The translations under genes were made by a program, and so were the position numbers. Under the pieces are notes generated by a model. It ran no database searches, was not told the DNA's origin, and saw nothing but the letters and a program-made list of their open reading frames with translations. A stretch of DNA of 64,000 nucleotides. It comes from Simmondsia chinensis (taxonomy: Eukaryota; Streptophyta; Magnoliopsida; Caryophyllales; Simmondsiaceae). How positions within the stretch are numbered: the stretch's first letter is position 1; every line of letters begins with the position of its first letter. Positions 17,545 through 64,000 of this stretch are shown here, piece by piece. The stretch lies in assembly GCA_018398585.1 (NCBI GenBank), contig JAGTTD010000003.1, forward strand, positions 8,192,637 through 8,256,636, written 5' to 3'.

Positions 17545-18962
17545 TCAAGTATAAATCATGGTGTCCACCAAAGGGACAACTTCAATAAGCTGTCGATCAA
17601 CAATCCCATCCAACTCAACTACAGGTTTAAGCCTTTGACCATTTACAGTGAATGCACGACCATCTTTTGGGTGGCATATCTCAATAGCACCCGAGGGGTA
17701 CACCTGCTTAACCACAAAAGGACCATCCCACCTATACCTCAACTTACCAGGAAAAAGACGCAATTTAGGATTAAAAAGGCAAACCTTTTCATCAGGAGCA
17801 AATATTTTCCTCAAAATATGTTTATCATGAAAAGCCTTGGTTTTAGCTTTATAAATCTTTGCATTCTTATAAGCTTCATTTCTCAACTCCTCAAGTTCAC
17901 TCAATTGGAGCTTTCGGTTAGATCCAGCTTGGTCTAAGTCAAAATTCAAAGCCCTAGTGGCCCAATAAGCATGGTGTTCTAACTCAACCGGTAAATGGAA
18001 GGCCTTACCAAAGACTAGCCTATAGGGTGACATATCAAGTGGGGTCTTATGGGTAGTACGGTAAGCCCCAAGAGCATCATTCAACCTAAGGGACCAATCT
18101 TTCCTATCAGGACGAACCGTTTTCTCAAGTATAGACTTGATCTCACGGTTTGAAAGCTCTACTTAACCCCTAGTTTAGGGATGATAGGGGGTGGCAATCT
18201 TATGATGCACTGAGTACTTCCTAAGATGTGTCTCAAATGAACTATAAATGAAATGCCTACCACCATCACTAATGAGTGCTCTAGGGGTACAAAAGCGGTT
18301 AAAAATGTGGTCCTTGACGAATTGCATGACCACTTTGTGGCCATTGGTCCTAGTAGATATAGCCTCAACCATTTTGACACATAATCAACCCCTAAAAGTA
18401 TGTAAACAAACCCAGAAGATGGGGGAAATGGTCCCATAAAGTCAATACCCCAAACCTCAAATATTTCCACAATTAAAATGGGGTTCAAAGGCATCATGTC
18501 TCGAAGCATCATTGCGCCTGTGCGCTGACAACGCTCACATGCAAGACAAAACTTGTGAGCATCCTTGAACAGAGTTGGCCAATAAAAACCACATTGTAGG
18601 ACTTTTGCAGCAGTCCTACGACCTCCAAAATGTCCTCCACATGTATATGAGTGACAAAAAGATAAAATTCTATGATACTCACACTCTGGAACACATCTAC
18701 GAATTACTTGGTCTGCACAATGTTTAAACAAGTTAGGGTCATCCCGGTAAATGTGCTTTACTTGAGAGTAAAACCTATCCTTTTCTTGCTTAGACCAAGT
18801 AGATGGAATCGCACCTGTGGCGAGGAAGTTAACAATATCTGCAAACCAAGGGCCACGTGAATAGGAGACAATAAAAATTTGCTCATCGGGAAAAGAGCTA
18901 TGCATTGAAATAGATGGATCATGATGCTCAAAGAAAATCCTAGAGAGATGGTCAACTACCAC
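17545..18962 (-). pseudogene. Integrase of the Athila-like element
   Basis: The N-terminal zinc finger is visible as H...H...CLACERC. The catalytic core has the first Asp in GIDFMGPF, the second in ISDGGRHF and the third acidic residue in [10 protein letters not shown]. The second Asp is in a shifted frame (18175-18372) relative to the first (18159-18962), and two stops separate the E-containing segment from the C-terminal part (17545-18084). The C-terminal part keeps the [19 protein letters not shown] and [10 protein letters not shown] motifs typical of this clade. The frameshift and stops make it non-functional. Confidence 0.85.
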
Positions 18963-19080
18963 ATTCTCTGCACCTTTCTTATCTCTAATCTCAATGTCAA
19001 ACTCTTGAAGTAGAAGAATCTATCTAATGAGCCTAGGTTTCATTTCTTTCTTTCAGAGCAAATATTATAATGCAGCATGG

Positions 19081-20296
19081 TCAGAATAGATAATGACTTT
19101 TGACCTCAAAAAGATAGGAACGAAATTTGTCAAGAGCAAACACAATAGCTAGTAACTCCTTTTCAGTGGTGGTGTAATGGCGTTGGACATCATTAAGAGT
19201 TTTACTAGCATAGTAAATGACATGAGGCACTTTGTTCACTCTTTGACCTAGGACGGCACCTATAGCAAAATCAGAAGCATCACACATAATTTCAAAAGGG
19301 AGAGAGTAATCAGGTGGCTGCATAATAGGGGCCGACACAAGTAATGATCTAAGCTTTCAGAAAGCTTCTAAGCAAGACTCATCAAACTCAAATGATAGCA
19401 AGCTAGTCAATGGTCTAGCTAACTTCCCAAAGTCCTTAATGAATCTCCTATAGAAACCTGCATGACCTAGAAAGGATCTAACTTGCTTCACGTTTGAGGG
19501 AAGGGGTAAGTTTGCAATCTGATCTACCTTAGCCTTATCAACCTCAATGCCCTTCTTGGACAATCTATGACCAATTATAGTCCCCTCTAGAACTATAAAG
19601 TAACTCTTTTCCCAACTCAAAACAAGATTGGTCTCTTCACATCTTTTTAGCACAAGCCTTAAATTCTGCAAACATTCATCAAACGAAGGTCCAAAAATAG
19701 AGAAATCAGCCATGAAAACCTCAAGAAATTTGTCTACCGTGTCAGAGAAGATAGACATCATGCATCTCTGGAATGTAGCGGGCGCAATAAATAAGCCAAA
19801 TGGCATCCTACGGTAGGCAAATGTGCCAAAGGGGCACGTAAAAGTCGTTTTTTCCTGATCCTCTAGGTAGACTGCTACCTGGTTATATCCTGAATATCCA
19901 TAAAGAAAATAGTAAAAGCTCTGACCGGCTAGCCTCTCTAAAATATGGTCAATGAATGGTAGAGAAAATGGTCCTTCCTAATGGTAGAGTTAAGCTTCCT
20001 ATAATCAATACATACTCTCTAGCCCGTGGTCTCTCTAGTAGGCACTAACTCTCCATCACTACTCCTAACCACAGTAACGCCGACTTCTTTGGGACTACCT
20101 GAATAGGGCTAACCCACCTTCTATCAGAAATTGGGTAAATGATACCTGCATCAAGCAACTTCGCAATCTCTTTCTTTACCACTTCCTTCATGTTAGGGTT
20201 CAACCTCTTTTGCATCTCTTTAGTGGGTCTAGCATTCTCATTAAGAAAAATCCTATGCATACAAATGGAAGGGTCTATACCCTTCAAATTAGCCAC
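19081..20296 (-). pseudogene. Reverse transcriptase and RNase H of the Athila-like element
   Basis: The RT start is seen at 20296-20045 (KEIAKLLDAGIIYPISD.RWVSPIQVVPKKS), then a break, then MPFGL...PATFQRCM at 19806. The catalytic motif reads FMADF, where the family has an FMDDF-type pair, so one catalytic Asp is replaced by Ala. The thumb/connection segment (GHRLSKKGIEVDKAKV, SFLGHAGFYRRFI) is well preserved. RNase H follows (DASDFAIGAVLGQ, TTEKELLAIVFALDKFRSYL) at 19338-19081. Stops and frame changes separate the pieces. Confidence 0.87.
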
Positions 20297-20299
20297 AGA

Positions 20300-21178
20300 C
20301 TACCCAATGGCACTCTTATGAGCACTAAGCACTATCATCAATGCATCCTCCTGTTCCCTAGACAATTGAGAAGAGATAATCATAGGTAAAGTCTCATCGG
20401 GTCCTAAGAAAGCATACTTAAGAGTAGATTGCAACGACTTAAGTTCAAGTTTGGGTGATGAAACTATGGAAGGCAAGGCAGGGGAATCCAAAAGCGTAGG
20501 TAAAGCTTCTACTTTTGAAAACCAATGACAAGTCTCTAAAGGGGTACAGAACTCAAGCAAATCATTCATCTCTCTAATGTCATTTTCAATCTCGAAATCA
20601 TAAGTACAATCATATACTAGTGCTTGCTCAAGGGAATCACTAACTAGGATAGAGAGGAGTGTTTGGTAAAAAAAATCATCAATAACATCCACCCAGAAAC
20701 ACTCCAACTCATCCTCACTAGTGGGTGACAACGAAGCCTTAAAATTGTTCAACCTAATAGTCATGTTTGCAAAACTAATGTCCATTATCCCAGATCTACA
20801 ATTAATGGTAGCATTGGCTGTCGCTAAGAAAGGACGACCTAGAATGATAGGGACATGGTTTTTTGAATGATTAGAAGGTTCCATATCAAGCACGAGGAAA
20901 TCAGCAGGAAATAAGACTCTGTCTACTCTCACTAACACGCCAATTAGCTCACCACGGGGGATCCTAGTTGATCTATCTGCTAACTGTAAGGTCACCGTGG
21001 TGGGTTGCAACTCTCCCAAGCCTAACTTCTCATAAACCGAGTAAGGGATAATGTTGACACTCTCTCCTAAGTCTAATAAAGCTTTATCAATCGGGTAGTC
21101 TCCAAGTGAACAAGAGATGGTTGGGACACTAGGGTCTTTGTACTTAATTGGAGTGTCACACTCCAGAATAAAGCTCAC
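20300..21178 (-). pseudogene. Aspartic protease region of the Athila-like element
   Basis: A 292-codon open stretch. The active-site motif is LDLGESVNIIP, where family members normally have LDLGASVN. PRG.LIGVLVRVD and IILGRPFLATANA match the flap and C-terminal parts of retroviral-type proteases. The remainder is a linker to RT. The open stretch begins after an in-frame stop that separates it from gag. Confidence 0.8.
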
Positions 21179-23083
21179 TTACTCGGCTAAAAATACTTTT
21201 TTAGGCAGATGTGCTCTAGATCGCCTCTTTTGGTTCAATAAGTCCTTAATGAACTTCGCATAGGCCGAGATCTGTTTAATTGCATCAAGAAGGGAAATGT
21301 TTATCTTTACTTGCCTAGAAGTCTCCAAAATGTCTTCCCACTTCTTGTCCTTCCCATTTGGATATGGTGCAACTAAAGCTTGGGGGGAAGGAAACTCTAG
21401 GTACATATGAGGAAGGAAGATTAGAGGTCTTAGGAGTGGAAGAATATGACCTCATCGGTCTCCTTCTCTCTTTCCTCTCTCTTTTCTTCTCCCTCGCCAC
21501 TTATGGGTACTTCACTCTCAGCACTCACCCCATCGTCAACCTCCTTTCCACTTCTTAACATTGTAATAGACATTGCTTGTTCTTGATGGGGAGGGTAATT
21601 TTCTTGTGTCACACAGTTCCTAGGGTTCTCTACGGTTTGGCTAGGGAGTCTTCCCTCGTCTCTCTTACTCAAAGTGTTAGCTAGTTGACCTATTTGGGTT
21701 TCTAACTTTGAGATCGATTGTGTATGAAAGTGGAGGAGTTGGGAATTAACTTCCAAACCTTTCAGCGCACTCAAAACCTTCCCTTCAAAATTCGAATTAG
21801 AGCTCAAATTAGGAGGTTGAGAGTAGTTGGAAGCATACCCTTGCGGTTGAAAACCGAGAGGTCGGGGCATACCAGATTGTTGAGGTCGTGGGTTTGGTTA
21901 TTGTGGCACGAATTGTCCTTCTCCTCCTTGCCTCCAGGAGAAGTTTGGATGGTTTCTCCAGCTCGCATTGCATGTGTTTGAGTACAGATCATTCCTTGAC
22001 AATCCTTAGGCTACATTAACCTGTTCCTCCTACCACTCAAACAAAGGTGAAGCAGAGGGGCAATCTTGTGTAGAATGAGAGACACTGGAGCATGAAGAAT
22101 AGACACTATGCGTGTTTTGAACATTATACACATTAGGCATAGTAGAGGGAGTCAATGTCATCGTAAATAAGGAAGTCAATTGTTCTACAGAAGAGGCAAG
22201 AGAGTCTACTTTCTTATCTAAGATGGAAGTGTGAGCAATTTCATATACTCTTCCTCTATTTAACATAACAGTATTTAAACGTGCATGTGCGGCATTCTGT
22301 TGTGAGTTCTCATTCAAATGTTCAAAAAATTCCCACGCCTCATCCTCATTCTTCCTGAGAAATTGACCACCGCATGAGGCATCAACAGTTTGTTGACCCT
22401 TCTCGTTTAACCCATAATAGAAATTTTGGACTAGTTGCCATTTAGGATAGCATGATGTAGACAAGCTCGTAAGAGTTCCCTAAACCTATCCCAACTCTCG
22501 TGAAACTCGGGCGAAGGTGTTAATGGCTCTCCTATCAGTGTTAGTCTTACTAATGGGATAGAATTTCTAAAGAAATTCTTGTTACAATTGAGTCCAAATA
22601 CTAATCGTCCCACTAGGTAAGGTGCCTAAGTAATACTTAGCCTTTTCTTTCAAAGAGAAAGGAAAAAAGACGAAGTAAGATGGCGTCATCACTAATGTTA
22701 GGAATCTTGATGGTTGAACAAACCTCCATGAAACTGTCCAAGTGTGTGTACAGGTTCTCATTACCTAAGCCATGCAATGAAGGAAGCATTTGTATGGTAG
22801 GTGCCTTAAGCTCGAACTGATAGGCTACCGGTGACAATCTAATGCATGAAGGCGAGGTGTATGTGGTGGGAGTAAAATACTCCATAAGTGGACGTGGTTG
22901 TTGTTTGTCAGCCATTGCGGCTTGTGCTCGGCGTTGGGCTCTAAAGTCTCTTAAAGTCCTTTCAATTTCAAGGTCGAATCTAGTAAGGTCAAGAGACAAA
23001 GAGCGGCGACCGTGCATGAAATAACAATCACAAGAAGCAAATAAAACTAAAACTAAAACTAGCAAAACAAACAAAACAAACAC
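21179..23083 (-). pseudogene. gag region of the Athila-like element
   Basis: The gag probably starts at the Met of MADKQQPRPLMEYF (about 22915). FELKAPTIQMLPSLHGL and HLDSFMEVCSTIKIPNISDD are typical of the Athila/Tat gag. The frame is broken before 22464, where FYYGLNEKGQQTVDASCGGQ continues it, and again near 22030 and 21870. The zinc knuckle seems lost in the degraded stretch near 22040. Upstream codons 22960-23083 are hydrophobic translation of leader sequence and probably not coding. Confidence 0.8.
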
Positions 23084-30130: not shown

Positions 30131-30719
30131 ATTATCAATAGGTAAAATTATATTACCAACAAATAAATTATTATTAATAAGCCAATTCTAATAGAGACAT
30201 TTACCAACATACAAATTTATTACTAATATTAATAATATTAAAAGAAGAATTACTAATAAACAAAATTATTAGTTTTAAATTAAAAAAATAGTACTTAAAT
30301 TTTTATTCAATTTTTTTTTTCCCCCTTAATTTTTATTTCCCTCTTTTTCTTCCAAACTTTCACTTTCCCTCTCAAATTTCATTTTTCCCCCCCTAACACT
30401 TACAATTTTTACCTAAAATTAATATTTATATCCTAATTAAAAATACTAAATTATGTAACCGAGTACCCATCCCACCCAAAGAAACCCCAACTATTCATTC
30501 TCACTGCCCAGCCCTGCACAGCACCGTGCCGCCCCGCCCCGACCCTCATTGTCCCATAACAGCTTTTTTTTGGTACATATTTCAGGTTTGTACTTAATAT
30601 TTTTGTTTACAACTTCCATAATTTATTGTGAAATTAGTTTTTCTATTTTGTTTCAACCCTTACAACTTGTTATATGAAAGATAAATTTTGCTAAAATTTA
30701 TGTTGCTTTGCTAGTTTTT

Positions 30720-31560
30720 GAGTAGTTTTGTGGCGGGAGGTTGTCGGGTTTGGATATTGAGGAGGTTCTATCAATTTTCAGGTTTGGATTGTGGTAGTAC
30801 TTTCAATTTTTCTAATTTTTATCTATTTTTTATACATATTTCAGGTTTATACTCACTACTTTTGTTTATAACTTTCATATTTTAGTGTAAAATTGGTTTT
30901 ATATTGTGTTTCAACTCTTGTTGTATGAGACATTGCTGAAATTTTTGTTGTCGTTGCTAGTTGTTGCGTAGTTTTGTGGTAGGAGGTTGTCGAGTTTGGA
31001 TATTGAGGAGGTTCTATCAATTTCCAGGTTTGGATTGTGGTAGCACTTTCAATTTTTCTAATTTTTATCTATTTTTTATACATATTTCAGGTTTATATTC
31101 ACTACTTTTGTTTACAACTTTCATATTTTAGTGTAAAATTAGTTTTATATTGTGTTTCAACTCTTATACTTGTTGTATGAGACATTGCTAAAATTTTTGT
31201 TGTCGTTGCTAGTTGTTGCGTAGTTTTGTGGTAGGAGGTTGTCAGGTTTGGATATTGAGGAGGTTCTATCAATTTTCAGGTTTGGATTGTGGTAGTACTT
31301 CCAATTTTTCTAATTTTTATCTATTTTTTATATATATATTTCAGGTTTATACTTATTACTTTTGTTTACAACTTTCATATTTTAGTGTAAAATTAGTTTT
31401 ATATTGTGTTTCAACTCTTATACTTGTTGTATGAGACATTGCTGAAATTTTTGTTGTCGTTGCTAATTGTTGTGTAGTTTTGTGGTAGGAGGTTGTTGGG
31501 TTTGGATATTGAGGAGGTTCTATCAACTCTTATATTTGGATTGTTGTAGACTACCTCTAG
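30720..31560 (+). repeat. Tandem repeats of ~240-257 bp in the CACTA element
   Basis: Four successive units start with GTTTTGTGG(C/T)(G/A)GGAGGTTGT at about 30728, 30969, 31221 and 31478. Each includes GGTTTGGATTGTGGTAG and TTTCAGGTTTAT, the latter resembling a splice acceptor. Downstream (31757-31820) lies an acidic Asp/Glu/Gly-coding GATGAAGATGA tract ending in a stop, possibly the degenerate last exon of a former transposon gene. Confidence 0.75.
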
Positions 31561-35440: not shown

Positions 35441-37310
35441 TTACAACCCAGCTGGGTCTGGAGGCTTAACATGTTAATGATTTACGTGAATTACGTGAGT
35501 GTTGTTTTTACGTGATTTATGTTCAACCTTGTCCCTAGCCAAAGGCTGGGGGCTTAACGTTCTCTATGTAATTTATGTTCCCTGGTGTAATTTACATTCT
35601 CAATGTGGTTTACGTTCCTTATGTGATTGACATCCCTTTTGTGATTTATGTTTAACCCAGCCCCAGACCGAAGGCTGGGGGCTGAAGTTGTTATTGGCGG
35701 TAACTTTCGCCAAACATGAGAGCCTGTGTTTGTTTGGGCCCCCATCTAACACCAGGGTCTGGCCGTTGTTTTGCTCCATTTGAAATGGGAGCATGAAGTA
35801 CTCAGGGCGGAAAACTTTCACCTAACGTGAGAGCTCGCGTTTGTTTGGGCCCCCATCTAACACTGGGGGCTGGCTATTGTTTTGCTCCACTTGAAATGAG
35901 AGCACGAAGTACTCGGGGTGGTAACTTTCGCCTAACATGAGAGTACGCATTTGTTTTGGCCCCCATCTAACACTGGGGGTTGGGCGTTGTTTTGCTCCAC
36001 TTGAAATGGGAGCACGAAGTACTCGGGGCGGTAACTTTCACCTAATATGAGAGCCTGCGTTTGTTTGGGTCCCCATCTAACACTGGGGTTGGCCGTTGTT
36101 TTGCTCCACTTGAAATGGGAGCATGAAGTACTCGGGGCGACGACTTTCACCTAACATGGGAGTCCGCGATTTCATTCGGGTCCCCATCTAACACCGGGGG
36201 TTGACCGTTATTTTCGTCCACTTGAAATGGGAGCACGAAGTAATCTGGGAGGTAACTTTCACCTAACGTGAGAGTTTGCGTTTATTTGGGCTCCCATCTA
36301 ACATCAGGGGCTGGTTGTTGTTTTGCTAACCTTGAAATGGGAGCACGAAGTATTCGGGGCGGTAACTTTCACCTAACATGAGAATCCGTGTTTGTTTGTG
36401 TCCCCATCTAACACTGGGAGCTGGCCGTTGTTTTGCTCCACTTGAAATGGGGGCACGAAGCACTCGAGGAGGTAGCTTTCACCTAACGTGGGAGTCCAGG
36501 ATTTCATTTGGGTCCTCATCTAACACTAGGGGCTGGCTGTTGTTTTGCTCCACTTGAAATGGGAGCACAATGTACTAGGGGCGGTAACTTTTGCCTAATG
36601 TGAGAGTCCGCGTTTGTTTGGGCCCCCATCCAATACTGGGAGCTGGCCGTTGTTTTGCTCCACTTGAAACGGGGGCACGAAGTACTCGGGGCGGTAACTT
36701 CCACCTAACTTGGGAGTCCGCGATTTCATTTGGGTCCCCATCTAACACCGGAAGCTGACCGTTGTTTTGCTCCACTTGAAATGGGAGCACAAAGTACTCG
36801 GGGTGATAACTTCCACCTAATGTGAGAGTCCGCCTTTGTTTGGGCCCCCATCTAACACCGGGGGCTGGCCGTTGTTTTGCTCCACTTGAAATGGGAGCAC
36901 AAAGTACTCAGGGCGGTAACTTTCACCTAACATGGGAGTCCGGGATTTCATTCGGGTACCCATCTAACACCGGCGGTTGGCCGTTGTTTTGCTCCACTTG
37001 AAATGGGAGCATGAAGTACTCGGGGCGGTAACTTTCATCGAACATGGGAGTCCGCGATTTCATTTGGGTGGCCATCTAACACGAGGGCTGGCCGTTGTTT
37101 CGCTCCACTTGAAATGGGAGCACGAAGTACTCGGGGCGGTAACTTTTGCCTAATGTGGGAGTCCGCGATTTCATTTGGGTCCCCATCTAACACTGGGGGC
37201 TGGTTGTTGTTTTGCTCCACTTGAAATGGGAGCACGAAGTAATCAGGCGCGTTAACTTTCACCTAACGTAGGAAGTCCGCGATTTGTTTGTGTACCCATT
37301 GGGGGCTCGA
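35440..37310. repeat. 111-bp minisatellite, about 14 units, in the LARD interior
   Basis: Units contain TTGTTTTGCTCCACTTGAAATG, GGAGCACGAAGTACTCGGGG, GGTAACTTTCACCTAAC-TGGGAGTCCGCG and a CCCCATCTAACAC-GGGG motif. The CTTGAAATG mark recurs about every 111 bp from 35779 to 37221. Two unit subtypes alternate irregularly (GTTTGTTTGGGCCCC versus GATTTCATTTGGGT). Shorter CCAAAGGCTGGGGGCT repeats precede it (35450-35690). Minus-strand ORFs over it are repeats of one another, not genes. Confidence 0.9.
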
Positions 37311-41888: not shown

Positions 41889-42467
41889 CTAACACCTTCT
41901 CAATATACTTCTCCTGAGACACGTATAATTTTTCAAATTTTCGGTCTCTACGATCTCCATGCCTAAGATCTTCTTAACTGCTCCAAGATCTTTCATCTCA
42001 AACTCACTCTTCAACATAGATTTCAAGTCATCAACATCCTTCATGTCTCGTGCTGCAATCAACATATCATCAATGTATAAAAGCAAATAATAAAAGGACC
42101 TTGTATCAGTCTTTCTAAAGTACACACAACTATCGTACTTACTCCTGATGTACCCATGACCTGTCATGAGCTGATCAAATCTCCTATACCACTGCCTAGG
42201 AGACTGCTTCAAACCATACAAAGACTTCTTAAGCAAACATACATGGTCTTCCTTTCCTTCTACAACAAAGCTCTTGGGCTGATGCATATAGATACTCTCT
42301 TCTAGTTCACCATGCAAAAATGCAGTTTTTACATCTAACTGCTCAAGCTCTAAGTCATGCATGGAAACTAAAGATAAAAGCACACGAATCGAAATATGTC
42401 TAACTACAGGTGAAAATATATCAAGAAAATCAATACCCTGTACCTGACTGTAGCCTTTAGCTACCAA
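41889..42467 (-). pseudogene. Reverse transcriptase of copia element 1
   Basis: A 192-codon open stretch: KGYSQVQGIDFLDIFSPVV, LDVKTAFLHGELEESIYM (first catalytic Asp), LYGLKQSPRQWYRRFD and the active site LLYIDDML. A frame change after MEIVE breaks the C-terminus. Upstream sequence to 42560 continues in another frame. Confidence 0.88.
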
Positions 42468-42878
42468 ACGTGCCTTGTATCTTGCATCTTCAACTCCAGG
42501 AATGCCCTCCTTTCTTTTGAAGACTCATTTGCAACCAATCAGTCTTTTCCCTGTTTAAGGTTTCACCAATTCCCATGTCTGGTTCTTATGAAGAGACTGC
42601 ATCTCTTCATTCATAGCAATGAGCCACTTCTCAGCATCTTATCTCGATACAGCCTTTGAATACAAAGTCGGCTCACTGTCATCTAAAGACTAAGCAGTAG
42701 TAAGGGCATAAGCAATCAGCTTGTCATACCCATATCTCTCTGAAGGCTTGATCTGTCGCCTCGGTCTATCACCTGCTATTGTATTATTCTCCACCTACTG
42801 ACCTGTTTCTGCATTATTAATAACAACATCAGAAACCTGTACCTAAGGTGCCGGAATACTCTCTAGCTGAACGACCTA

Positions 42879-43722
42879 CTAATCTGACTGTATATGTGTA
42901 ACATCAGGTATCTCAACCTGAACTGAATCACAATCAACGAAGGATGTGTGTGGAGGATGTAGTAGAGCAGACTCATCAAAGGTGACATCTCTACTAGTCA
43001 AAAACTTCTGAGCACTGGGATCCCACATTCTATATCCCTTCACACTTGACGAATAACCAAGAAATATGCATTTCTTGGCCCTAGGCTCTAGCTTTCCATC
43101 GTTAACATAAGCATATGCAGGACAACCAAATACTTTAATTTGAGAATAATCAGAAGTAGAACAAGACCATACCTCTTCAGGTGTCTTCATCTACAATGAA
43201 GAATGCAATTTCTTGTTCACAAGATAGCAAGCCATGCTAACTGCTTCTGCCCACCATTCTCTTTTCAAGCCTGCATTTGAAAGCATATATCGAGCCTTCT
43301 CAAGTAACATCCTGTTCAATCTTTCAGCCACTCCATTTTGCTGAGGTCGACCTGTACATGTCCTGTGTCTGACTATACCCAGATCTTCACAAAATTGAGT
43401 GAAGTCACCTTCAACAAACTCAAGACCATTATCAGTCCTCAACCTCTTTATTGGCTTCCCTGTCTGTTTTTCAAGAAGAATCTTCCATTTCTTGAAGACA
43501 TCATACACTTCATTTTTCTATCTTCAGAAAATAGACTCAAACTTTATGTGAATAATCATTAGTAAACCTTAGAAGATACCTGAACCCACCTTTAGAAGCC
43601 ACTATAGAAGGTCCCCACAGATCAGAATGTATATAATCTAATGTTCCCTTTGTCTGATGCACTGCTGACTTGAAGCTGACTCTTTTCTGCTTCCCATACA
43701 CACAGTGCTCATAGAAATCCAT
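42879..43722 (-). pseudogene. Integrase of copia element 1
   Basis: The zinc-finger end and core are visible: CVYGKQKRVSFKSAVH, LDYIHSDLWGPS (first Asp), RTDNGLEFVEGDF (second Asp), QQNGVAERLNR (catalytic Glu), then KVFGCPAYAYVNDGKLEPRAKK. A frame change separates the first part (43537-43722) from the second (43191-43508), and a stop separates the third (42879-43190). Confidence 0.87.
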
Positions 43723-43749
43723 CAGTCCTGTTGATTGACCACAAAGCAG

Positions 43750-44208
43750 TCACCTTTTACTCAACTCAGACAATGCCTTATCACCAATGTGACCCAATCT
43801 CATGTGCCACAGTCTCGTGATCTCTGCATCTGTCATAGTATATGTGGAAGCAGCAACTGAACCTATCACGGTAGTACTTGCAAGCTCATACAAAGTACCT
43901 ACCCTTTTCCCTTTCATTACAACTAAAGCACCCTTATTGACCCACATGACTCCACCTTCAGCAGTGTACTTGTACCCACTAGATTCAAAGGTACCTAGAA
44001 AAATCAAGTTTTTCTTCAACTCCGGGACGTGACGTACATCACTTACAGCTCTAATAGCCTGATCAAACATCCTCACACGAATTGTCCCAATCCCCACTAC
44101 CTTACAAGCAGCATTGTTACCCATTAAGACAACTCCACCCTGTATAGACTTATATGTGAAAAACCAGTCTCTATTTAGACTAATGTCATTTGAACAACTC
44201 GAATCCAT
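43750..44208 (-). pseudogene. Protease and pre-integrase region of copia element 1
   Basis: Active site reads MDSSCSNDIS where copia proteases have DSGCS-H, so the Gly is lost. GGVVLMGNNAACKVVGIGT follows, then the pre-integrase LWHMRLGHIGDKALSEL. Reading stops at a TGA before the integrase zinc finger. Confidence 0.82.
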
Positions 44209-44366
44209 GACCCACTTATCCTTGAACCTGGACTGAGAATCAGCAACTAAAAGAAACTCCCCATCACTATCATCCTCTACAACACTAGCCTCAGCGGACT
44301 TAGCTTTGCCTTGGTCACCCCTGTTACCTTCTTTCGATTTATTTTTATATTTTTAACAATTTTTCT

Positions 44367-45083
44367 TTATGTGCCCTTTCTTATGACAGTAATGGCACGA
44401 CAGGTTCTTATGTCTAGATTTAGACCTAGTCTTTTTTCCACCATTGGATCCTCTATGTTCTGAACTACCTCTCCATGTAAACCACTACCTGAGTCATTCA
44501 CCGAGTCAGATAACTCCCTATGTACCCGTTCTTTACTCACAAGGTTTCTTTTCACCTCATTAACAGTAATGGTCGGCCTACCCCCGTATATCATGCTTTC
44601 TACACAGCCCTTGTACGAATGAGAGAGCAAACATAGTAACAACATAGCTTGGTCCTTGTCCTTAGGGACATCATACAATTCCTTTAATTCTTGTATGATA
44701 GAAGTAAACTCGCTAAGATGGTTTTTAAGAGATGTACCTTCTGTCATACGGAAAGTAAATAACCAACGCTTCACTGCGAGTTTGTTGGAGACAGACTTGT
44801 GGCAAAACATGTCTAGAAATTTCTCCCATAACTCCTTTGCGGTTTTCATCTCTAAGACCTCTGTCAAAACATCATCTGCTAAACACATCTGTATCGCCGT
44901 GAGAGCCTAATCATCCAACTCTTCCCACTGTGCCTCGGTCATAGTCTCAGGTTTCTTCTCTTTCCCCTCCAGTGCTTTCTTCAAGCCATTCTGAGTCAAG
45001 AGTCCTTTCACATGGACTTGCCATAAGCTAAAGCTTCCTTGACCTCCGAACTTCTTTACCTCAGTCTTAATACCTGATACCAT
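44367..45083 (-). pseudogene. gag of copia element 1
   Basis: The start is the ATG at 45083-45081, right after the primer-binding site. The frame stays the same to 44367 except for a TAG at about 44910. UBN2-type capsid features: TAKELWEKF, KRWLFTFRMTEGTSLKNHLSEF, LLCLLSHSYKG. A frameshift occurs just before the zinc knuckle, CHYCHKKGHIKKNC, which is readable in a neighbouring frame near 44360-44400. Confidence 0.85.
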
Positions 45084-49343: not shown

Positions 49344-50222
49344 TGCAATGGTATGCAGTGGTTTGTTGATAAACTGCTGGTGACGTACAGAATTGTTCGG
49401 ACTTCTTTATTTCCATTGCATTTTTCTCTATTTCCGCAGGGCTTATTTTTTGACACTATAATCAGCATTAATCCCTAGATGGGTGCTTATGAAATTGAGC
49501 GCATTCATCATTCTCTATGGTGCAGCCCATCTTTGTATACGTGGGAACTACTCGGTATCTGTTGATATTATGACGACCCTTGTGAAAATGGCTGCTGCTA
49601 TTGTCTTGTGTGCGACCACTATGACACTCCTTGAGTTCATTTCTCATTCCTTAAGTGTGGAAGCGAGGCAGTTCGTGGAGAAACATGGCTCAGGATTGGA
49701 GGGCCAGGAATCAAAGAAGTTTTTTTTTTTTTTAATGTCCAACAAATTTTGGTCATCTATTACAATGGAGGGCCAGAATTTGCTCTTCTCACGCTCTCAC
49801 CCTCTCATAAGAATACCACCCTATATATATATATATATATATATATAAGTACCCATGCATAAGGCCATTTGCATAACGAATAGCTCAAAATTCATTATCT
49901 AATGACCTTTATTTGATTCCACGTAGTAATTTCGATTTGTAATGGTGTTCAGAATACCTTGAACATCTTCTTGTACTTAAGAAGAGCTCCTGGCGTTACA
50001 GGTTGTTGATTTGGCAAAACCCATTGCAGCTGTAGAGATGTTATCATTAACCTTAGCATCTTCAATAACTTTCTGAAGACCATCTTAAATGCTGTGGGAT
50101 ATACTATGAAATTCACAATGGAGGTATACATATCATGTTTGCAAGACCAGTTTTTGAGAGATTGGCAAGCTCCTAAATTTTACTGTGTATCAAGTGATTG
50201 CCATTTCTACTTGAAAGTGCAG
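49344..50222 (+). pseudogene. Ethylene-receptor pseudogene (transmembrane and kinase fragments)
   Basis: Ethylene receptors are ER-membrane proteins that bind ethylene through copper held by a Cys and a His in the second helix. The first part (49344-49707) reads, over shifting frames, CNGMQW.VDKLLVTYRIV, then HFSLFP, then WVLMKLSAFIILYGAAHLCI and a third helix region ending SVEARQFVEKHG. That is the N-terminal binding domain with frameshifts and stops. The copper Cys is Tyr (LYGAAH), while the His is kept. The GAF and histidine-phosphotransfer parts are absent. The second part (50002-50222) matches the kinase ATP-binding region: VVDLAKPIAAVEM, a frameshift, then TILNAVGYTMKFT (N-box, usual NAVGN changed), SCLQDQ and SSDCHFYLKVQ ending at a CAG|GT donor. 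The 280 bp between holds a poly-T tract and a TA microsatellite. Clearly dead. Confidence 0.85.
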
Positions 50223-52507: not shown

Positions 52508-53677
52508 CTAGCTATCACAGTAGACCCTAACTGTGCCTTGATCAACACTGAGTTCACTAATCAAACCTCTCAACCAAACAATTTCCTTGAATGCTTCTGT
52601 CACTGCCATATACTCGGCCTCTGTAGTTGACTGTGCGGTAACTGACTGTAGACATGCTCTCCAACTAATAGCACTGTCACCCAAACAGAACACATAACCT
52701 GAAGTAGATTTTCTCTTATCGAGGTCTTCACCACAGTCTGAGTCAACATACCCAACTAAACAGCATTTACTCCTCCCAAACTTCAAGCAAACATCTGAAG
52801 TGCCACATAAGTACCTGGGAATCCATTTGACAGTGTGCCAATGCTCCTTTCCTGGATTCGCCATGTATCTACTCACTTTGCTAATAGCATAAGCAATATC
52901 TGGACGAGTACATACCATAGCATACATGACACTACCAACTACACTAGAGTAAGGGACCTGTGACATGTACCTGACATCTTTCTCTGTCTGAGGCGAATCC
53001 AATGCTAAAAGCCTGAAATGAGCTGCCAACGAAGTGCTAACAGGCTTAACATCCTTCATATGAAGTCGATCCAAAACCTTCTCCATATACTTCTCCTGAG
53101 ATAAGTATAACTTTCCTACTTTTCGGTCCCTACTGATTTCCATACCGAGTATCTTCTTGGCTACTCCCAAATCCTTCATCTCAAACTCGTTTTTCAGCAT
53201 TGTTTTCAAGCTATTAACATCAGTCATGTCCATAAGTGAAATCAACATATCGTCAACATATAACAGAAGATAAATGTATGAACCTGAGTCTGTCTTTCTG
53301 AAGTACACGCAACTATCATATTTACTCCTGAAGAACCCATTACTAGTCATGAACTGATCAAACCTTTTGTACCACTGTCTAGGTGACTTCCTCAAACTAT
53401 ATAAAGATCTTTTCAACAAACAAACATGATCTTCCTCACCCTCAACAATGAAGCCTTCAAGCTGATGCATGTAAATACTCTCCTCTAGCTTACCATTCAA
53501 AAATGCAGTTTTCACATCTAACTGCTCAAGCTCTAAATCATGCATAGCTACTAAAGCAAGTATCGCTTGTATGGAACAATGTCTAACGACAGGTGAGAAA
53601 ATATCGTGAAAATCAACACCATGTACCTGACTGTAACCTTTAGCTACTAACCGAGCCTTGTACCTTGCATCTTCCAC
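52508..53677 (-). CDS. Copia element 2 reverse transcriptase and RNase H (open)
   Basis: Copies the element RNA to DNA and degrades the RNA strand. The 389-codon stretch holds KGYSQVHGVDFHDIFSPVV (about residues 13-31), LDVKTAFLNGKLEESIYM (catalytic Asp near 54), the active site LLYVDDML (140-143) and EMKDLGVAKKILGMEI. RNase H follows: VGSVMYAMVCTRPDIAYA, GYVDSDCGEDLDKRKSTSGY and TTEAEYMAVTEA. It ends shortly before the usual C-terminus at a stop (52508). The start here is only the first Met of the open stretch; in the living element this was part of a polyprotein, with upstream sequence in another frame. Whether any protein is made is doubtful because gag and integrase are broken. Confidence 0.75.
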   Translation of the reverse strand: MEDARYKARLVAKGYSQVHGVDFHDIFSPVVRHCSIQAILALVAMHDLELEQLDVKTAFLNGKLEESIYMHQLEGFIVEGEEDHVCLLKRSLYSLRKSPRQWYKRFDQFMTSNGFFRSKYDSCVYFRKTDSGSYIYLLLYVDDMLISLMDMTDVNSLKTMLKNEFEMKDLGVAKKILGMEISRDRKVGKLYLSQEKYMEKVLDRLHMKDVKPVSTSLAAHFRLLALDSPQTEKDVRYMSQVPYSSVVGSVMYAMVCTRPDIAYAISKVSRYMANPGKEHWHTVKWIPRYLCGTSDVCLKFGRSKCCLVGYVDSDCGEDLDKRKSTSGYVFCLGDSAISWRACLQSVTAQSTTEAEYMAVTEAFKEIVWLRGLISELSVDQGTVRVYCDS

Positions 53678-54109
53678 TCCAGAAATGCCTTCTTTTCGTT
53701 TGAAGACCCATTTGCATCCTATAACTCTCTTTCCTGTTTGAGGCTTGACTAGCTGTCAAGTCTGGTTCTTCTATAATGACTCCATTTCTTTATGCATGGC
53801 CATTAGCCACTTCTCTGAGTCAAATCTAAATACAGCCCCTGAATATGTAGATGGATCAGAATCTTCCACTGTTTCAGTTGTAGTAAGGGCATAGGCTATC
53901 ATCTCCTCATACCCATATCTCTGTGGCAGCCTAATCTGTCTTTTCTGCCTTCCACCAGCAATAGTATACTGCTCGACCTGCTGACCTATTTCTGTTTCAT
54001 CATTCTCATCAAAAACTTGTACCGGAGGTACCTGTATACTCTCAATCTGTACTACCTGCTGCTGATCTGAACTATCTGACTATAATTAACTCTCATCAGG
54101 CTTCTGCAC

Positions 54110-55093
54110 CTAACCCGAATCTCGAACTAAGGAGGGCGTCTGTGGCGGATGTAGTAGGGCAGACTCATCAAATGTAACATCCTTACTAGTAAGAAATTTA
54201 TGAGATTTTGGATCCCATAAACAAAATCCCTTCACACCTGATATATAGCTAAGAAAGATATACTTCTTAGCTCTAGGTTCTAGCTTCCCATCATTCATAT
54301 AAGTATAAGCAGGACAACCAAAAATTCTTGAATGAGAGTAATCAACAGGGGATCCAGACCATACCTCTTCTGGTGTCTTCAACTGAAGCGATGAATGAGG
54401 TGATCGGTTCACTAAGTAACATGCCATGTTAACTGCCTCTGCCCACCATTCTCTCCCTAAGCCTACATTGGATAGCATACATTGACCCTTGTCCAGTAAC
54501 ATCCTATTCAGTCTTTTTGCCACTTCGTTCTATTGAGGTCGACCTCTACAAGTCTTGTGTTTGACAATACCTTGGTTCTCACAGAATTTGGAAAAAAAAA
54601 ATTCAAGACCATTATCAGTCCTCAACCTTTTTATCTGCTTCCCTGTCTGTTTTTCAAGCCGTGTCTTCCACTTCTTGAAGACTTCATAAACTTCGTTTTT
54701 TTACTTAAGAAAATAGACCCAAACTTTTCTTGAATAATCATCAGGGAACGTTAGAAAATACCTGGAACCTCCTTTGGAAGCAACTCTGGATGGTCCCCAC
54801 AAATCTAAATGAACATAATCTAGCCTTCCTTTAGTCTGATGCACTGCCTGCTTGAAGCTGACTTTCTTCTGCTTCCCATAGATGCAATGCTCACAGAATT
54901 GCATCAGCCCTGTAGACTGACCACACAATAATCTCTTGCTCAACTCTGTCTGACCCTTATTACCCATATGGCCCAATCTCATGTGCCACATCTTGGTAAT
55001 ATCTGATTCTAACATAGATGTAGAAATAGCCACTAACCCTGTCACGGTAAAACCTACAAGCTCATACAAGGTTCCTACCCTTCTGCCCTTCAT
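54110..55093 (-). pseudogene. Integrase of copia element 2
   Basis: WHMRLGHMGNKGQTELSKR and CEHCIYGKQKKVSFK form the zinc-binding part. LDYVHLDLWGPS holds the first Asp, in one frame at 54701-55093. After a break the rest (MAKRLNRMLLDKGQCMLSN, IFGCPAYTYMNDGKLEPRAKK) reads from 54523 to 54110. The segment with the second Asp (54540-54690) is present but out of frame and includes an A-run. Confidence 0.85.
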
Positions 55094-55385
55094 CGCAATT
55101 AACGCACCCTTATTGACCCCATAACTCCACCTTTAACTGTGTACTTGTACCCATTTGAATCAAGGGTACCTAAAGAGATAAGGTTCTTTTTCAAATTTGG
55201 GACATGTCACACGTCGCTAAGTGTCGTGATAGTACCATCGAACATCTTAACTTTGATTGTTCCTATACCCATAACCTTACAAGCGTCATCATTGCCCATC
55301 AAGACTACTCCTCCCTGAATTGACTTGTATATGGTGAACTAGTCTCTATTTGGACAAACGTGATAAGAACAACCTGAATCCATGA

Positions 55386-56243
55386 TCACTTATCCTTGGA
55401 TCTGGCCTGGGACTCAGTATCACGCTCATCTTCAACTACACTAGTCTCAGCAGACTTATCACCTCTATTATGGTCATACCTGTTATCTTCTTTCTGCTTA
55501 TTCTTAAACTTATAACAGTTTTTCTTTATGTGCCCTTTCTTGTGACAAAAGTTACATGACAAGTTCTTGTGTCTAGACTTAAACCTTGACTTCTTTCCAC
55601 CATCAGACCCTCTATTATTAGTACTACCTCTCACAAACAAACTATTACCAAAGTCATTCACAAAGTCAGACAATTCCTTATCCACTCGTTCTTTACTCAT
55701 TAGGTTTCTCTTAACTTTATCAATTGTAATAGTTGACCTACCACCATATATCATGCTTTCTACAAAGCCTTTATATGAACTTGAGAGTGAACATAATAAC
55801 AACATGGCCTAATCTTCATCTTTAGGGGCATCATCCAATTCTTTCAACTCTTGAATTACAGAGTTAAATTCATTAATATTGTTATTAAGAGATATACCTT
55901 CCGACATACAAAACGTGAATAATCGGCACTTGACTGCGAGTTTATTGGAGACCGATTTGAAGCAAAACATCTCCTGCAACTTCTCCCACAACTTCTTAGC
56001 GGTTTTCACCTCCAAGACTTCTGTCAAAACATCATCTGTAAGACACATCTGAACAGCTGTAAGTGCCTTCTCATCTAACTCCTCCCATTGTGCTTCGGAT
56101 AAACTCTCCGGCTTCTTCTCTTTTCAATCCAGTGCTTTCTTCAAGCCATTCTGCGTCAAGAGACCTTTAACGCGGACTTGCCACAAACTGAAACTCCCTT
56201 GACCACCAAACTTCTCTACTTCAGGTTTAATCGCTGACGTCAT
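55386..56243 (-). pseudogene. gag of copia element 2
   Basis: Starts at the ATG 56243-56241, just inside the primer-binding site. One frame continues to 55386 apart from two in-frame stops (about 56126 and 55806, the latter where an AMLLLCSL-preceding Gln is expected). UBN2-type capsid region and an intact zinc knuckle CNFCHKKGHIKKNC (about 55505-55560). Protease follows at 55385-55100 (MDSGCSYHV in the neighbouring frame), broken by stops. Confidence 0.85.
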
Positions 56244-60137: not shown

Positions 60138-61239
60138 CTTCCAATTGAGTTCTTAATGCGCAATGAAAATATACCGTCGCTCATTTTCACCATCCAAATT
60201 TTTATATATGTTGGAGAACATGAGATAGGAAGGACTTATATCTCCCTGCTCATTTGAACTTCGTAGTCTGTTGAAATGTCTTGAAGTCTCTCAGAATGTC
60301 TTCTCTTCGAATCTGCTTCTTTGCTCTTATTGTCATGTATTCTGCTTGCATTATTTTGCATGGAAATAGAAGTAGTTTGTTTGAGCATAGCAGGATTGAT
60401 AGACGGGCATATCTGTGATAGCCGAGTTCCATGTTTTGAGTATTGCGATGAAGATTGTTTGTTGGTAGTTTCACAAAATCGGGACATCATGAACAATACG
60501 TAACAGGTTACAATGATCATGGTGGTGTTCTAAGGGAACATAAGTTACATTAAGCCTTATGTTAGCAAAAATTTGAATGAAGACCAATATAATAATTGAT
60601 TTTTTTTATTGTAAGAAAATTTGATTTTTGTACTGCTCTGATAGTTCTCAACATGTGAATATGTTGTATAAGTACATTTAAATATTGTTTGCATTGCAGA
60701 GCAAGTTATAAAGTACAATTACGCAAAGGCCAACTGCGTAACGCTAGCTCAAAATCCAATAAGTAATGGCCTTTATTTGATTCAATGTTCATGAATACTT
60801 TAGTGTGACTACCCATTCCTCATTACTGCATCTAACTTAAAATGTTTCTGTAGTCTTTACCGTCTTATTAGCCCTTGCATCGAGATCATGTATTCCATTT
60901 CTGATGGCCATTCTTGTTCTTTGGCATTCAAAGCCTGATGAATCATACATTCATCAGATAAATATCAGTTGATGGAAGGACACTTATTGTCTGCTTTGAA
61001 CTCGTTTAAGAGGCCTTATCGGCTCTCTCTACATTATGGAATCAAATAAATGGGGTTAGGTAACGTCATTAAGGCCATTCGACATTAGATGTTGAGTTAA
61101 TTGCTATGTGACTGATCATTACATGACTATGCTTTGTAATTGACGTTATAATGTGTATATATCGTATTTTTATTTATTAAAACATATTTATAAATGGATT
61201 TACATTGTTAAAAAATGTCAAAAGAAGCATAAAAATTAA
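60138..61239. other. Unassigned region with candidate MITE arms
   Basis: A 94-codon minus-strand ORF (60236-60520) has no recognised domain. The sequence near 60722-60783 (AAAGGCCAACTGCGTAACG, TAATGGCCTTTATTTGATTC) resembles 49866-49920. The inverse GGAATCAAATAAATGGGG and AAGGCCATT occur at 61039-61084. This could be a TIR element of about 380 bp. No gene supported. Confidence 0.4.
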
Positions 61240-61536: not shown

Positions 61537-61538
61537 AG
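61537..61538 (+). promoter_or_regulatory. Splice acceptor before the ethylene-receptor-like exon
   Basis: TAACTTTTCAG precedes the exon, 21 bp before the ATG. An intron in the 5' leader just before the start codon is usual for plant ethylene-receptor genes, so the first (non-coding) exon should lie further left; I could not locate it. An upstream in-frame ATG at 61437 lies on the intron side and is not preferred. Confidence 0.6.
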
Positions 61539-61559
61539 GTCATGTACCACCTTCAAATA

Positions 61560-62432
61560 ATGGACTCCTGCGACTGCATTGACATATGGTCTGATGACAT
61601 GACTATAATGATATCACAGCGCATATTCGGGTTTGTAACTGCCATAGCATTTTTCTCTGTACCGCTGCAGCTCATTTTTTTCATTCGAAAATCAGCATTT
61701 ATCCCTCACAAGTGGGTCTTCGGTTTCTTTGGTACTTTGTTTTCTCTTTGTGGAGCAACCACCTTGATTCATTCATGGCCAATTACCGTTTATTTAGGCT
61801 CTGCGAGTCCAGTCATAACAGTTGTAAAATTTTCTACTGCTCTTCTGTTATGGTGGGCAATGCTTTTGCTGTTTTACATTATACCAGATCTTCTACAAAC
61901 AAAAGAAAGGGAACAGTTTCTGAAAAAGAGGATTCAAGAGCTAGGTGCAGAGCTGGACCTCGCCATTTGCCAAGAACAAAGTTACGCACAGATTTGTACG
62001 TTGAGTCACGAGATCAGATGCACCCTTGATCGGAGCACCATTCTGAAAACAACTCTTTGTGGGCTAGGACAGGCGCTCAAGCTCGAGGAATGTACATTGT
62101 GGGTTCAATCACGAGTTGAAAGGAAACTGCAACTTTTTTACTCATGGAATGGCTCGACTCCTCTTGGATTGACTGTGTCGATGGACCTTCCGATTGTTGA
62201 AGAAATACTCAACAGTACAGGAGCATTGAAAATAAGGCATGCATGCCCCTTGGTTGCTGCATCCGAGGCTGTTGCTATCCGGGTTCCTCTTATACAGCTG
62301 GAAGATCTTGAGACGAAGGATTGGCACGATAACACCATAGAAAGCTTAGTTATGGTTCTGGGCCTTCCTTCTCATGTTATAAGAAGATTGCATGACTATG
62401 ACTTGGAAATTGTGGAGGCTGTTGCAGACCAG
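61560..62432 (+). CDS. Ethylene-receptor-like protein, first coding exon (291 codons), copper-site residues lost
   Basis: Subfamily-I-type receptor (ETR1/ERS1-like), normally an ER-membrane dimer that binds ethylene via copper and signals through CTR1. The ATG at 61560 gives MDSCDCID, matching the family start, with the two disulfide Cys at 4 and 6. Three hydrophobic helices follow (about 22-43, 53-72, 84-108), then a coiled linker (QTKEREQFLKKRIQELGAEL) and a GAF domain (about 133-288) with HEIRCTLDRSTILKTTL, LEECTLWV and EIVEAVADQ. The exon ends at CAG|GTTTGA exactly where the family has its first coding intron. No stop or frameshift in 291 codons. The second helix reads LCGATTLIHSW: copper Cys is kept (64) but the copper His is Thr (68), with a His at 71. 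ETR1 residues Asp25, Tyr32, Ile35 and Ile62 are Gly, Phe, Val and Phe here; only Pro36 and Cys65 of the key set remain. A receptor that cannot bind ethylene normally, or a decaying copy, is inferred. Kinase exons are not found by 64000. Confidence 0.88.
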
Positions 62433-63944
62433 GTTTGATGTTTGACCTTCTTTCTTTTAGATTGAACACAGTTACTTGTGGCATATGCATAGTTGCAAGA
62501 AACTTTTAAAATGGTAACATTTTCATACTCATAAATGTGATTCGGCGTTTTGAAGTCAGATGTGCATTTCCAACACATATCAAACATGACAGAAATGCAA
62601 TTCAAACAATAATGAAATCATTTTGATAAAAAGACACTTATTATATGATCTATTGGCTAATTATATCACTCGATTTAAAGAATGATTGGATTGTATGGAT
62701 ATATTGAAGTCTATTTTCTTACTCTTATTTATTGGAGTGCTAAATTTTCTTGGTTACTGCTTAACATTGACTTTGTTATAATACTTATGATTTAATGGTT
62801 CAATGAATGACATTTCACTAAACTTTCTTGTACATCTAATATATAGCAATGTAAGTGTTTCCTCTACACTTCCAACCTTAGAAACTTCTATGACTGCTTG
62901 CTCTCCTGTTTTCGCTCTCGCTCCCATTTCCACTTTGTGCAACTCTGGTCATAGGCTTCATTTGGCTAGAGAGAAAAGATATCTTCCCACCAGAAAAAGA
63001 TTTCTCCTAAGCATTTTTTTCTTATGCATCCATATTTGTAGTCTGCATTTTATCTTTGCTGGTACAACTTTTCTGTTACACTTGCCATAGAGGCATTGTA
63101 CAAGAATAGCATGTAGAGCATAGAATCAAATAAAAGTTGTTACATAACGACAATAAGTTTTATACATCAAGCTATTCTCCCTTTTGAATTGTGGGGGTTT
63201 TTTTTTTTCTGACTTATTTTGACATAGTACTCCGTTAGAATTTCTTCACAAACATGACATCAATTTCACACAATTCTTATATTTTTATAGTATTCCGTTG
63301 AAATATTTTTTTGCAAACTTAACATCAATTTCGCACAAGCACTATATTGCTAAAATTTAAGTTGTTTCTATACTAAGTTGACGCAATTAAAATGCAAGGA
63401 CCAAATTGATAAGCAAAGTATAGGGACTTGTAATGTAACTAACTCTATAATTATAATATACATTTGATAGCTTTTGACATGCAAATACATTTTTAAGTAT
63501 GTTTTCACAAATCAAATAAAATAATATATATTTGATACCTTGGCCTAGGTTTTATTTACTATCTGTTTATATTACTGGATCGTTACATCCCCCAATACCT
63601 TGCTCTTAATCACATTCTACTGTATTGAATAGAGAGTCGAAATAACTATGATTCAAACTATATATCTTAGAAGGAGGCTATGGTCCAACGTATAGATTCC
63701 ACGGAAACCTATGCTTCTCGTTCCTGTTCCACGTTTCCTGACATTCCACGTTCCAGGTATTAACTGTTCTGTTTATCTTATTGATTTGGGTTTTCTACAC
63801 AAAACTACCTTCAAAAGTTGTCATTTTTCACTTAACCACTACAATTTTTCAATTTCTTAGAAAACCTCCTTTAAAAGTTCAAAGTTCTCAATCAGTCACC
63901 AAATTTATACCGTTAGTTTTTCATTGAGGCTACATGTGTAAAAA
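62433..63944. other. Presumed intron or downstream DNA
   Basis: The expected next exon (start VAVALSHA, then the histidine motif) is not visible in any plus frame to 63944. The ORFs here have no domain. Repeats with partners at 58130-58275 occupy 63390-63510. 63805-63925 has paired AACCTCCTTTAAAAGTT-type motifs resembling a small MITE end. Either the intron is long because of insertions, or the gene is truncated. Confidence 0.5.
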
Positions 63945-64000
63945 AGCAACATACCCAGTGCCCCAAGGACTCCCATCTAAGCAGGGTCTGCGGGGGGCGG
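63945..64000 (-). mobile_element. SINE copy 4, minus strand, runs off the right edge
   Basis: On the minus strand it reads GCAGACCCTGCTTAGATGGG, then AGTCCTTGGGGCACTGGGT, the 3' body of the TTG-tailed SINE family. Its TTG tail is reduced (ATGTTGC) on the left side. Confidence 0.6.

Follow-up and report, generated by a model that had tools for sequence, protein, structure and literature searches.

As judged from its sequence, a gene of Simmondsia chinensis that we termed ERSx fails as a working ethylene receptor, yet it is not an evident pseudogene. ERSx is an ERS1-type paralogue in which the copper-ligand His is replaced by Thr within an open frame, and its protein is likely unable to sense ethylene. 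The reading that we favour, with somewhat less than even confidence, is that ERSx is an ethylene-blind paralogue of ERS1 that would associate with the normal receptors in the ER membrane and keep CTR1 active.

The window, i.e., the whole 64-kb stretch of DNA analysed, corresponds to C34:8192637-8256636, and the genome searched comprised 831 Mb in 35 contigs. The features of ERSx are as follows (window positions unless a contig is named; residue changes in ETR1 numbering).

61542..61559, + strand: in-frame upstream ATG, read from the sequence; would add six residues (MYHLQI) provided that splicing uses the predicted acceptor at 61538
61560..62432, + strand: ERSx exon 1, with a three-helix ethylene-binding domain, a coiled linker and GAF
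61605..61904, + strand: degenerate ethylene-binding domain, residues 16-115, with D25G, Y32F, I35V, I62F, H69T, S98L, C99W, T101A and A102M
61749..61751, + strand: Cys64 codon, equivalent to ETR1 C65, copper ligand kept
61761..61763, + strand: Thr68 codon, equivalent to ETR1 H69, copper ligand lost
61770..61772, + strand: His71 codon, equivalent to ETR1 position 72, proposed by the initial annotation as a substitute ligand
62433..64000, + strand: first part of predicted intron 1, which has 2269 bases in total and continues past the window
C34 8257338-8257706, 8259535-8259801, 8261326-8261450 and 8263215-8263383, + strand: ERSx exons 2-5, outside the window

The initial annotation had described exon 1 as a 291-codon open exon with an ethylene-receptor start, bordered by introns at 61538 and 62432. 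The 291 codons were indeed open, with a translation that agreed with the annotated one, and the open stretch around them extended to 336 codons; 500 Markov-shuffled versions of the neighbouring 3 kb yielded at most 188. The exon matched Pfam ETR1_N with an E value of 2.5e-14. On reading the sequence, both proposed borders were present: an acceptor CAG ending at 61538, and a donor, CAG followed by GTTTGA, with the break directly after 62432. The annotated GAF domain stood only in part, as its score was below the cut-off for the exon alone (17.2 vs 22.4 bits) and just above it for the spliced protein (23.7 bits). The search for exon 2 inside the 64-kb window found none; this exon begins 702 bases beyond the window end. 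Exons 2-5 were found in order, all open and with GT-AG at each intron, giving a predicted spliced frame of 600 codons, and the kinase exons on which the initial annotation had made its reading depend were among them. No stop, frameshift or broken splice site was found across the five exons, and ERSx accordingly did not classify as a pseudogene in the sequence test. Exons 2, 3 and 4 have 369, 267 and 125 bases in both ERSx and the ERS1 of the same genome (C7), while exons 1 and 5 of ERSx are shorter by 33 and 21 bases, respectively; the length changes thus come in threes. When exon 2 was used as a query against the genome, one match of this form was obtained, followed by ETR1 (39%) and ERS1 (36%).

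Within the 64-kb window, no tRNA and no Rfam match was detected. A scan of viral contigs yielded no relative. The window contains a satellite array at 1530-9182 (174-base unit, 44 copies, 82% match) and tandem arrays at 35696-37299 (110-base unit, 14.5 copies) and 30567-31549 (254-base unit, 3.9 copies). Broken retrotransposon-like frames were seen on the minus strand at 17545-23083, 41889-44888 and 52508-55805, one being Ty3/gypsy-like and two Ty1/copia-like as judged by eye.

According to passages of PMC6586836 and PMC12744750, ethylene binding requires copper, which Cys65 and His69 hold. Passages of PMC8879215 state that mutation of Y32, F61, I62, C65 or H69 in ETR1 diminishes binding, and those of PMC11819568 that a change of D25 or C65 eliminates it; D25, Y32, I35, P36 and I62 are each named as needed in passages of these sources (PMC6586836, PMC11819568, PMC8879215). 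Helix 2 of ERSx reads LCGATTLIHSW. A gap-free stretch of the alignment with the genome's own ERS1 and ETR1 gave D25G, Y32F, I35V, I62F and H69T, which bears out the changes that had been annotated at these positions. F61 was altered too, and positions 98, 99, 101 and 102 carried Leu, Trp, Ala and Met, respectively, while C65, P36, F58, K91 and the two N-terminal dimer cysteines, C4 and C6, were kept. The copper-ligand pair of a functional ethylene receptor is therefore incomplete, with Cys65 retained and His69 replaced by Thr, and P36 is the only one of the other five required residues that remains. Because D25 and four of the five positions listed in the PMC8879215 passages (Y32, F61, I62 and H69) are changed, ERSx would not be expected to bind ethylene.

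The conservation of these positions was determined in 159 plant proteins, which include some near duplicates and consist of 67 plant ethylene receptors from the best 120 of 309 matches and 92 new ones from the best 120 of 3619. Position 69 was His and position 65 was Cys in 157 of the 159 proteins each, the remaining two being gaps. Asp25 was present in 154 (Asn in one, gap in four), Tyr32 and Ile35 each in 155 (gap in four), Ile62 in 157 (gap in two), and Ser98 in 158 (gap in one), whereas ETR1 position 72, the site of His71 in ERSx, was Asn in 139, Ser in 18 and a gap in two. Bacterial proteins with an ethylene-binding domain share the three-helix domain with ERSx but, unlike ERSx, have kept the His in 52/52 loci. 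Tyr32 and Ile35 were each found in 50/50 bacterial loci with a letter there and Asp25 in 43/50; conservation at positions 31-38 and 58-65 is inflated, since the patterns used to find the loci cover these positions, and positions 69 and 25 lie outside them. No natural plant ethylene receptor without this His was reported in the titles and abstract openings of the open-licence papers listed. Exon 1 was modelled with AlphaFold2 on an alignment of 50 rows (mean pLDDT 68, pTM 0.37). The model had three membrane helices, the last of which was prolonged as a long coil, and a GAF-like part with both strands and helices, predicted with moderate confidence; ten-residue blocks of the ethylene domain had pLDDT values of 58-86. 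Hydropathy also peaked at the three helix positions, and a sequence search found no solved structure for the ethylene domain.

We then placed ERSx in the receptor family. An ETR1_N search of the genome, in which all 10 candidates were scored, identified five open loci including ERSx, and one receptor locus with an internal stop (C34:8242077). Exon 1 of ERSx matched the first exons of the four other open loci, C7, C31, C10 and C12, with identities of 48%, 44%, 34% and 33%; the tree assigned C7 to ERS1, C31 to ETR1, and C10 and C12 to subfamily II. Against Arabidopsis sequences, exon 1 had 43% identity with ERS1, approximately 42% with ETR1, and 32% with ETR2 and EIN4. The ERS1 protein of C7 was 86% identical to one database row, and 84%, 81%, 80% and 78% identical to those of Silene, Malania, Carnegiea and Amaranthus, respectively, of which Malania belongs to another order than the other three. 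In a tree of 30 rows, the sister group of this ERS1 contained Silene, Dianthus, Amaranthus and Carnegiea (99/95), so that the sequences themselves point to a host in Caryophyllales.

In a nine-row tree, ERSx grouped with the genome's own and Arabidopsis ERS1 (99/98) and was sister to its own ERS1 (83/85), with a branch length of 1.61 vs 0.077 for the latter. ERSx was the longest branch in both trees. The 30-row tree set it beside a Drosera capensis protein, P0005, and P0002, and nested the genome's ETR1 among ERS1 rows; we read this placement as long-branch trouble, and constraining ERSx to its own ERS1 cost 6.3 log units and was not rejected (p-AU 0.116). The clade and the exon pattern indicate from sequence that ERSx descends from ERS1, its exact sister being unsure. 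Like ERS1, ERSx has five coding exons, the three-helix domain, GAF, the HisKA/HATPase order without a receiver domain, and C4 and C6; it differs in having an exon 1 only 48% identical to that of its own ERS1, changes at five of seven essential ethylene residues, and a lost GLGL motif. Subfamily II receptors of the ETR2/EIN4 type have degenerate kinase motifs, as in ERSx. In contrast to ERSx, the subfamily II members of this genome and those of Arabidopsis (the ETR2/EIN4 type, leaving ERS2 aside) keep the copper-site Cys and His, and their first coding exon spans most of the kinase (open frames 581 and 601), with 33-34% identity to the ERSx exon. Exon 1 by itself gave no match in a protein search confined to proteins of 0.55-1.75 times the query length. 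With the full-length protein, none of the matches listed was more than 47% identical to ERSx (best 120 of 309 matches; the 7997 candidates with the most shared words were scored), and long retention of ERSx thus lacks orthologue support among the matches listed.

The initial annotation had spoken of a loss concentrated in one site. We compared 200 highly conserved positions, defined as those conserved in at least 98% of the 159-protein plant set. ERSx kept 34/64 in the ethylene domain, 42/63 in the linker and GAF, 21/46 in the phosphoacceptor domain and 23/27 in the ATPase domain, whereas the genome's ERS1 kept 64/64, 63/63, 45/46 and 26/27, respectively. Neither the ethylene domain compared with the rest (Fisher p 0.22) nor the seven essential residues compared with the other conserved positions of that domain (5/7 vs 25/57 lost, p 0.24) showed an excess, and concentration was therefore not supported. 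Divergence in the phosphoacceptor domain equals or exceeds that in the ethylene domain, and the ATPase domain is the best kept. Overall, ERSx deviated at 79 of the 200 positions; among the 159 plant proteins, P0061 deviated at the largest number, 29, followed by one at 11. P0061 is from Cajanus cajan and may reflect an error in the gene model, or else a further rapidly evolving paralogue.

Pfam scores were lower in ERSx than in its own ERS1 and the proteins of three other plants: 52.1 vs 107.9-110.1 bits for ETR1_N, 23.7 vs 51.8-57.0 for GAF, 64.5 vs 80.9-87.0 for HATPase_c, and 18.2 for HisKA vs 67.0 in its own ERS1 and 59.7-67.4 in the other three. ETR1_N, GAF and HATPase_c were above the cut-off on the spliced protein, which together with the three helices gives the architecture of a receptor; HisKA was below it (E 0.0026; 18.2 vs 26.9 bits). 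The spliced protein also matched the solved kinase pieces of ETR1 and ERS1, 4pl9 and 4mt8. In the kinase, the phosphoacceptor His is kept, in the changed H-box context HQMTLPT, and G1 (DSGCGI) is kept, whereas the G2 box GLGL has become GISL and the first Asn of the N box is changed, so that the motifs of an active histidine kinase are not complete. On account of the H-box context HQMTLPT, the change of GLGL to GISL and the HisKA score under the cut-off, ERSx is predicted to have little or no kinase activity.

Selection was analysed with a codon model of three genes (ERSx, ERS1 and ETR1; 594 codons), which is blind to stops. With branch dS left free, dN/dS was 0.45 on ERSx and 0.06 on ERS1. 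The test of ERSx against 1 gave a 2dlnL of 4.48, which was reached by 2/60 null simulations, and no domain was significant (2dlnL 1.90 for the ethylene domain, 1.30 for the linker and GAF, and 1.92 for the kinase part). A single split gave rise to the ERSx and ERS1 branches, which had similar dS estimates when these were left free (0.86 and 0.99); dS was also set equal. Under this setting, which assumes a synonymous clock and is subject to saturation on the ETR1 branch, dN/dS was 0.42 on ERSx vs 0.065 on ERS1 (2dlnL 41.3, reached by 0/60 null simulations), and the protein evolution of ERSx was about 6.5 times faster than that of ERS1. By domain, the equal-dS values were 0.40 for the ethylene domain (p 0.03), 0.40 for the linker and GAF (p 3e-4), 0.64 for the phosphoacceptor domain (p 0.13) and 0.30 for the ATPase domain (p 1e-6). 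The comparison with intact paralogues proposed in the initial annotation thus gave ratios of 0.42-0.45, below 1, with evidence against neutrality over the whole gene that is modest when dS is free.

Divergence in all domains, most of all in the phosphoacceptor domain, together with the longest branch in both trees, would also suit a neofunctionalised membrane histidine-kinase-like protein outside the ethylene pathway that would still be produced and under constraint, in which the old sensor would be an anchor and GAF and ATPase would have a new role. The ethylene domain's dN/dS of 0.40, significant with equal but not with free dS, points the same way, the site itself being gone. We consider this rather unlikely, as the architecture, the lengths of exons 2-4 and the N-terminal cysteines are those of ERS1 and Pfam shows no new domain.

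A second ERS1-like copy was found 11 kb upstream of ERSx, corresponding to the locus with the internal stop near 49.4 kb of the window.

49344..49712, + strand: decayed exon 1 fragment of the second ERS1-like copy, with shifting frames and a stop inside; Tyr at the C65 position, D25 and H69 positions kept
50002..50222, + strand: remnant of exon 3 (kinase part) from this copy, likewise decayed; closest to the ERS1 of the genome

By sequence, this copy classifies as a pseudogene. In local alignments, 245/349 and 173/217 of its bases matched the genome's ERS1, compared with 173/257 and 55/80 for ERSx. It was considered as a recent sister of ERSx and rejected, being closer to the genome's ERS1. 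ERSx and ERS1 differ at 719/1782 aligned bases, and ERSx has therefore diverged more from ERS1 than has the decayed copy where the latter could be aligned. The Tyr at the Cys65 position is the same change as in the etr1-1 allele. A 59-base repeat (83% alike), perhaps a small transposon, occurs at 60726-60783, upstream of the ERSx exon, and at 49861-49919, downstream of the decayed exon 1.

The initial annotation had offered either a neofunctionalised receptor or a recent pseudogene. The five open exons agree with an intact receptor-like gene that has lost its site, and on these exons and the stop count a recent pseudogene was rejected as the main reading. Random change of 0.05 per site gave a mean of 2.9 stops, with a probability of 0.04 of none, and changes of 0.4 and 0.86 per site gave 15 and 21 stops; neutrality along the whole ERSx branch is incompatible with the absence of stops and with the equal-dS test. 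The data would be compatible with a loss of function in about the final 5% of the branch, because some 0.05 neutral changes per site leave no stop with a probability of about 0.04. ERSx could accordingly be on its way out, under relaxed constraint and recently unused or not expressed, with a stop not yet acquired. Its dN/dS relative to that of ERS1, the free-dS domain tests compatible with a dN/dS of 1, the lack of an orthologue among the matches listed, the already decayed copy nearby and the TE-rich surroundings would all fit. Such a fate seems improbable to us, given 600 codons and the splice borders of four introns intact, exon length changes in threes, and a branch that was not neutral as a whole.

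That ERSx is still an ethylene receptor with an altered copper/ethylene site, in which His71 or another residue substitutes for H69, is very improbable: C65, P36, F58 and K91, a His at position 72 and three predicted helices are in its favour, but the His, a real residue as annotated, lies seven residues from the Cys rather than four, which we estimate as about 10 angstroms along the helix, making rescue of copper binding a weak proposal, and D25, Y32, I35, F61, I62 and S98 are changed as well.

We now return to the favoured reading of ERSx as an ethylene-blind partner of the normal receptors. The CTR1 docking region of receptors includes their ATPase end, and the phosphoacceptor domain carries dimer contacts. 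ERSx would be transcribed and spliced as modelled, and its product would bind neither copper nor ethylene. It may still dimerise via the two kept N-terminal cysteines and dock CTR1 through the best-kept ATPase end. Located in the ER membrane beside normal receptors, it would hold CTR1 active, so that ethylene responses would be damped, not enhanced. The copper-less etr1-1 receptor remains active and blocks responses, according to passages of PMC12744750. In passages of the same source, the copper-starved normal receptors of ran1 mutants are said not to function and not to be capable of interacting with CTR1, and the sign of the effect could for this reason be the reverse (PMC12744750). Dimerisation and CTR1 docking may also be gone in ERSx, since the phosphoacceptor/dimerisation region has kept 21/46 conserved positions and its dN/dS of 0.64 is not distinguishable from 1.

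An active hormone-blind state is favoured by the best-kept ATPase end and by I62F, which would be the change of the dominant allele etr1-4; a search of open-licence papers for this identity gave none backing it. ERSx resembles the dominant ethylene-insensitive alleles etr1-1 (C65Y) and etr1-4 in having a broken ethylene/copper site, and its I62F would equal the change of etr1-4. Each of these alleles carries one point mutation and is otherwise a normal receptor, whereas ERSx is changed at 30/64 conserved ethylene-domain positions; they are also laboratory alleles, and ERSx occurs naturally as a paralogue in a genome whose ERS1 is intact. As a possible but doubtful extension, we suggest that ERSx may be a fixed natural 'etr1-4', i.e., a full-length, long-kept receptor without a copper site that would poison receptor clusters and hold CTR1 on, thereby damping responses.

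The copper-ligand His was kept in every compared sequence with a letter at this position, from cyanobacteria to flowering plants, and ERSx has lost it with the frame open. ERSx hence makes it possible to ask directly how the receptor body behaves when it has no ligand, and whether sensitivity in plants is tuned by ethylene-blind partners as it is in the dominant laboratory mutants. If ERSx does act as such a partner, it would provide a natural genetic handle on ethylene sensitivity.
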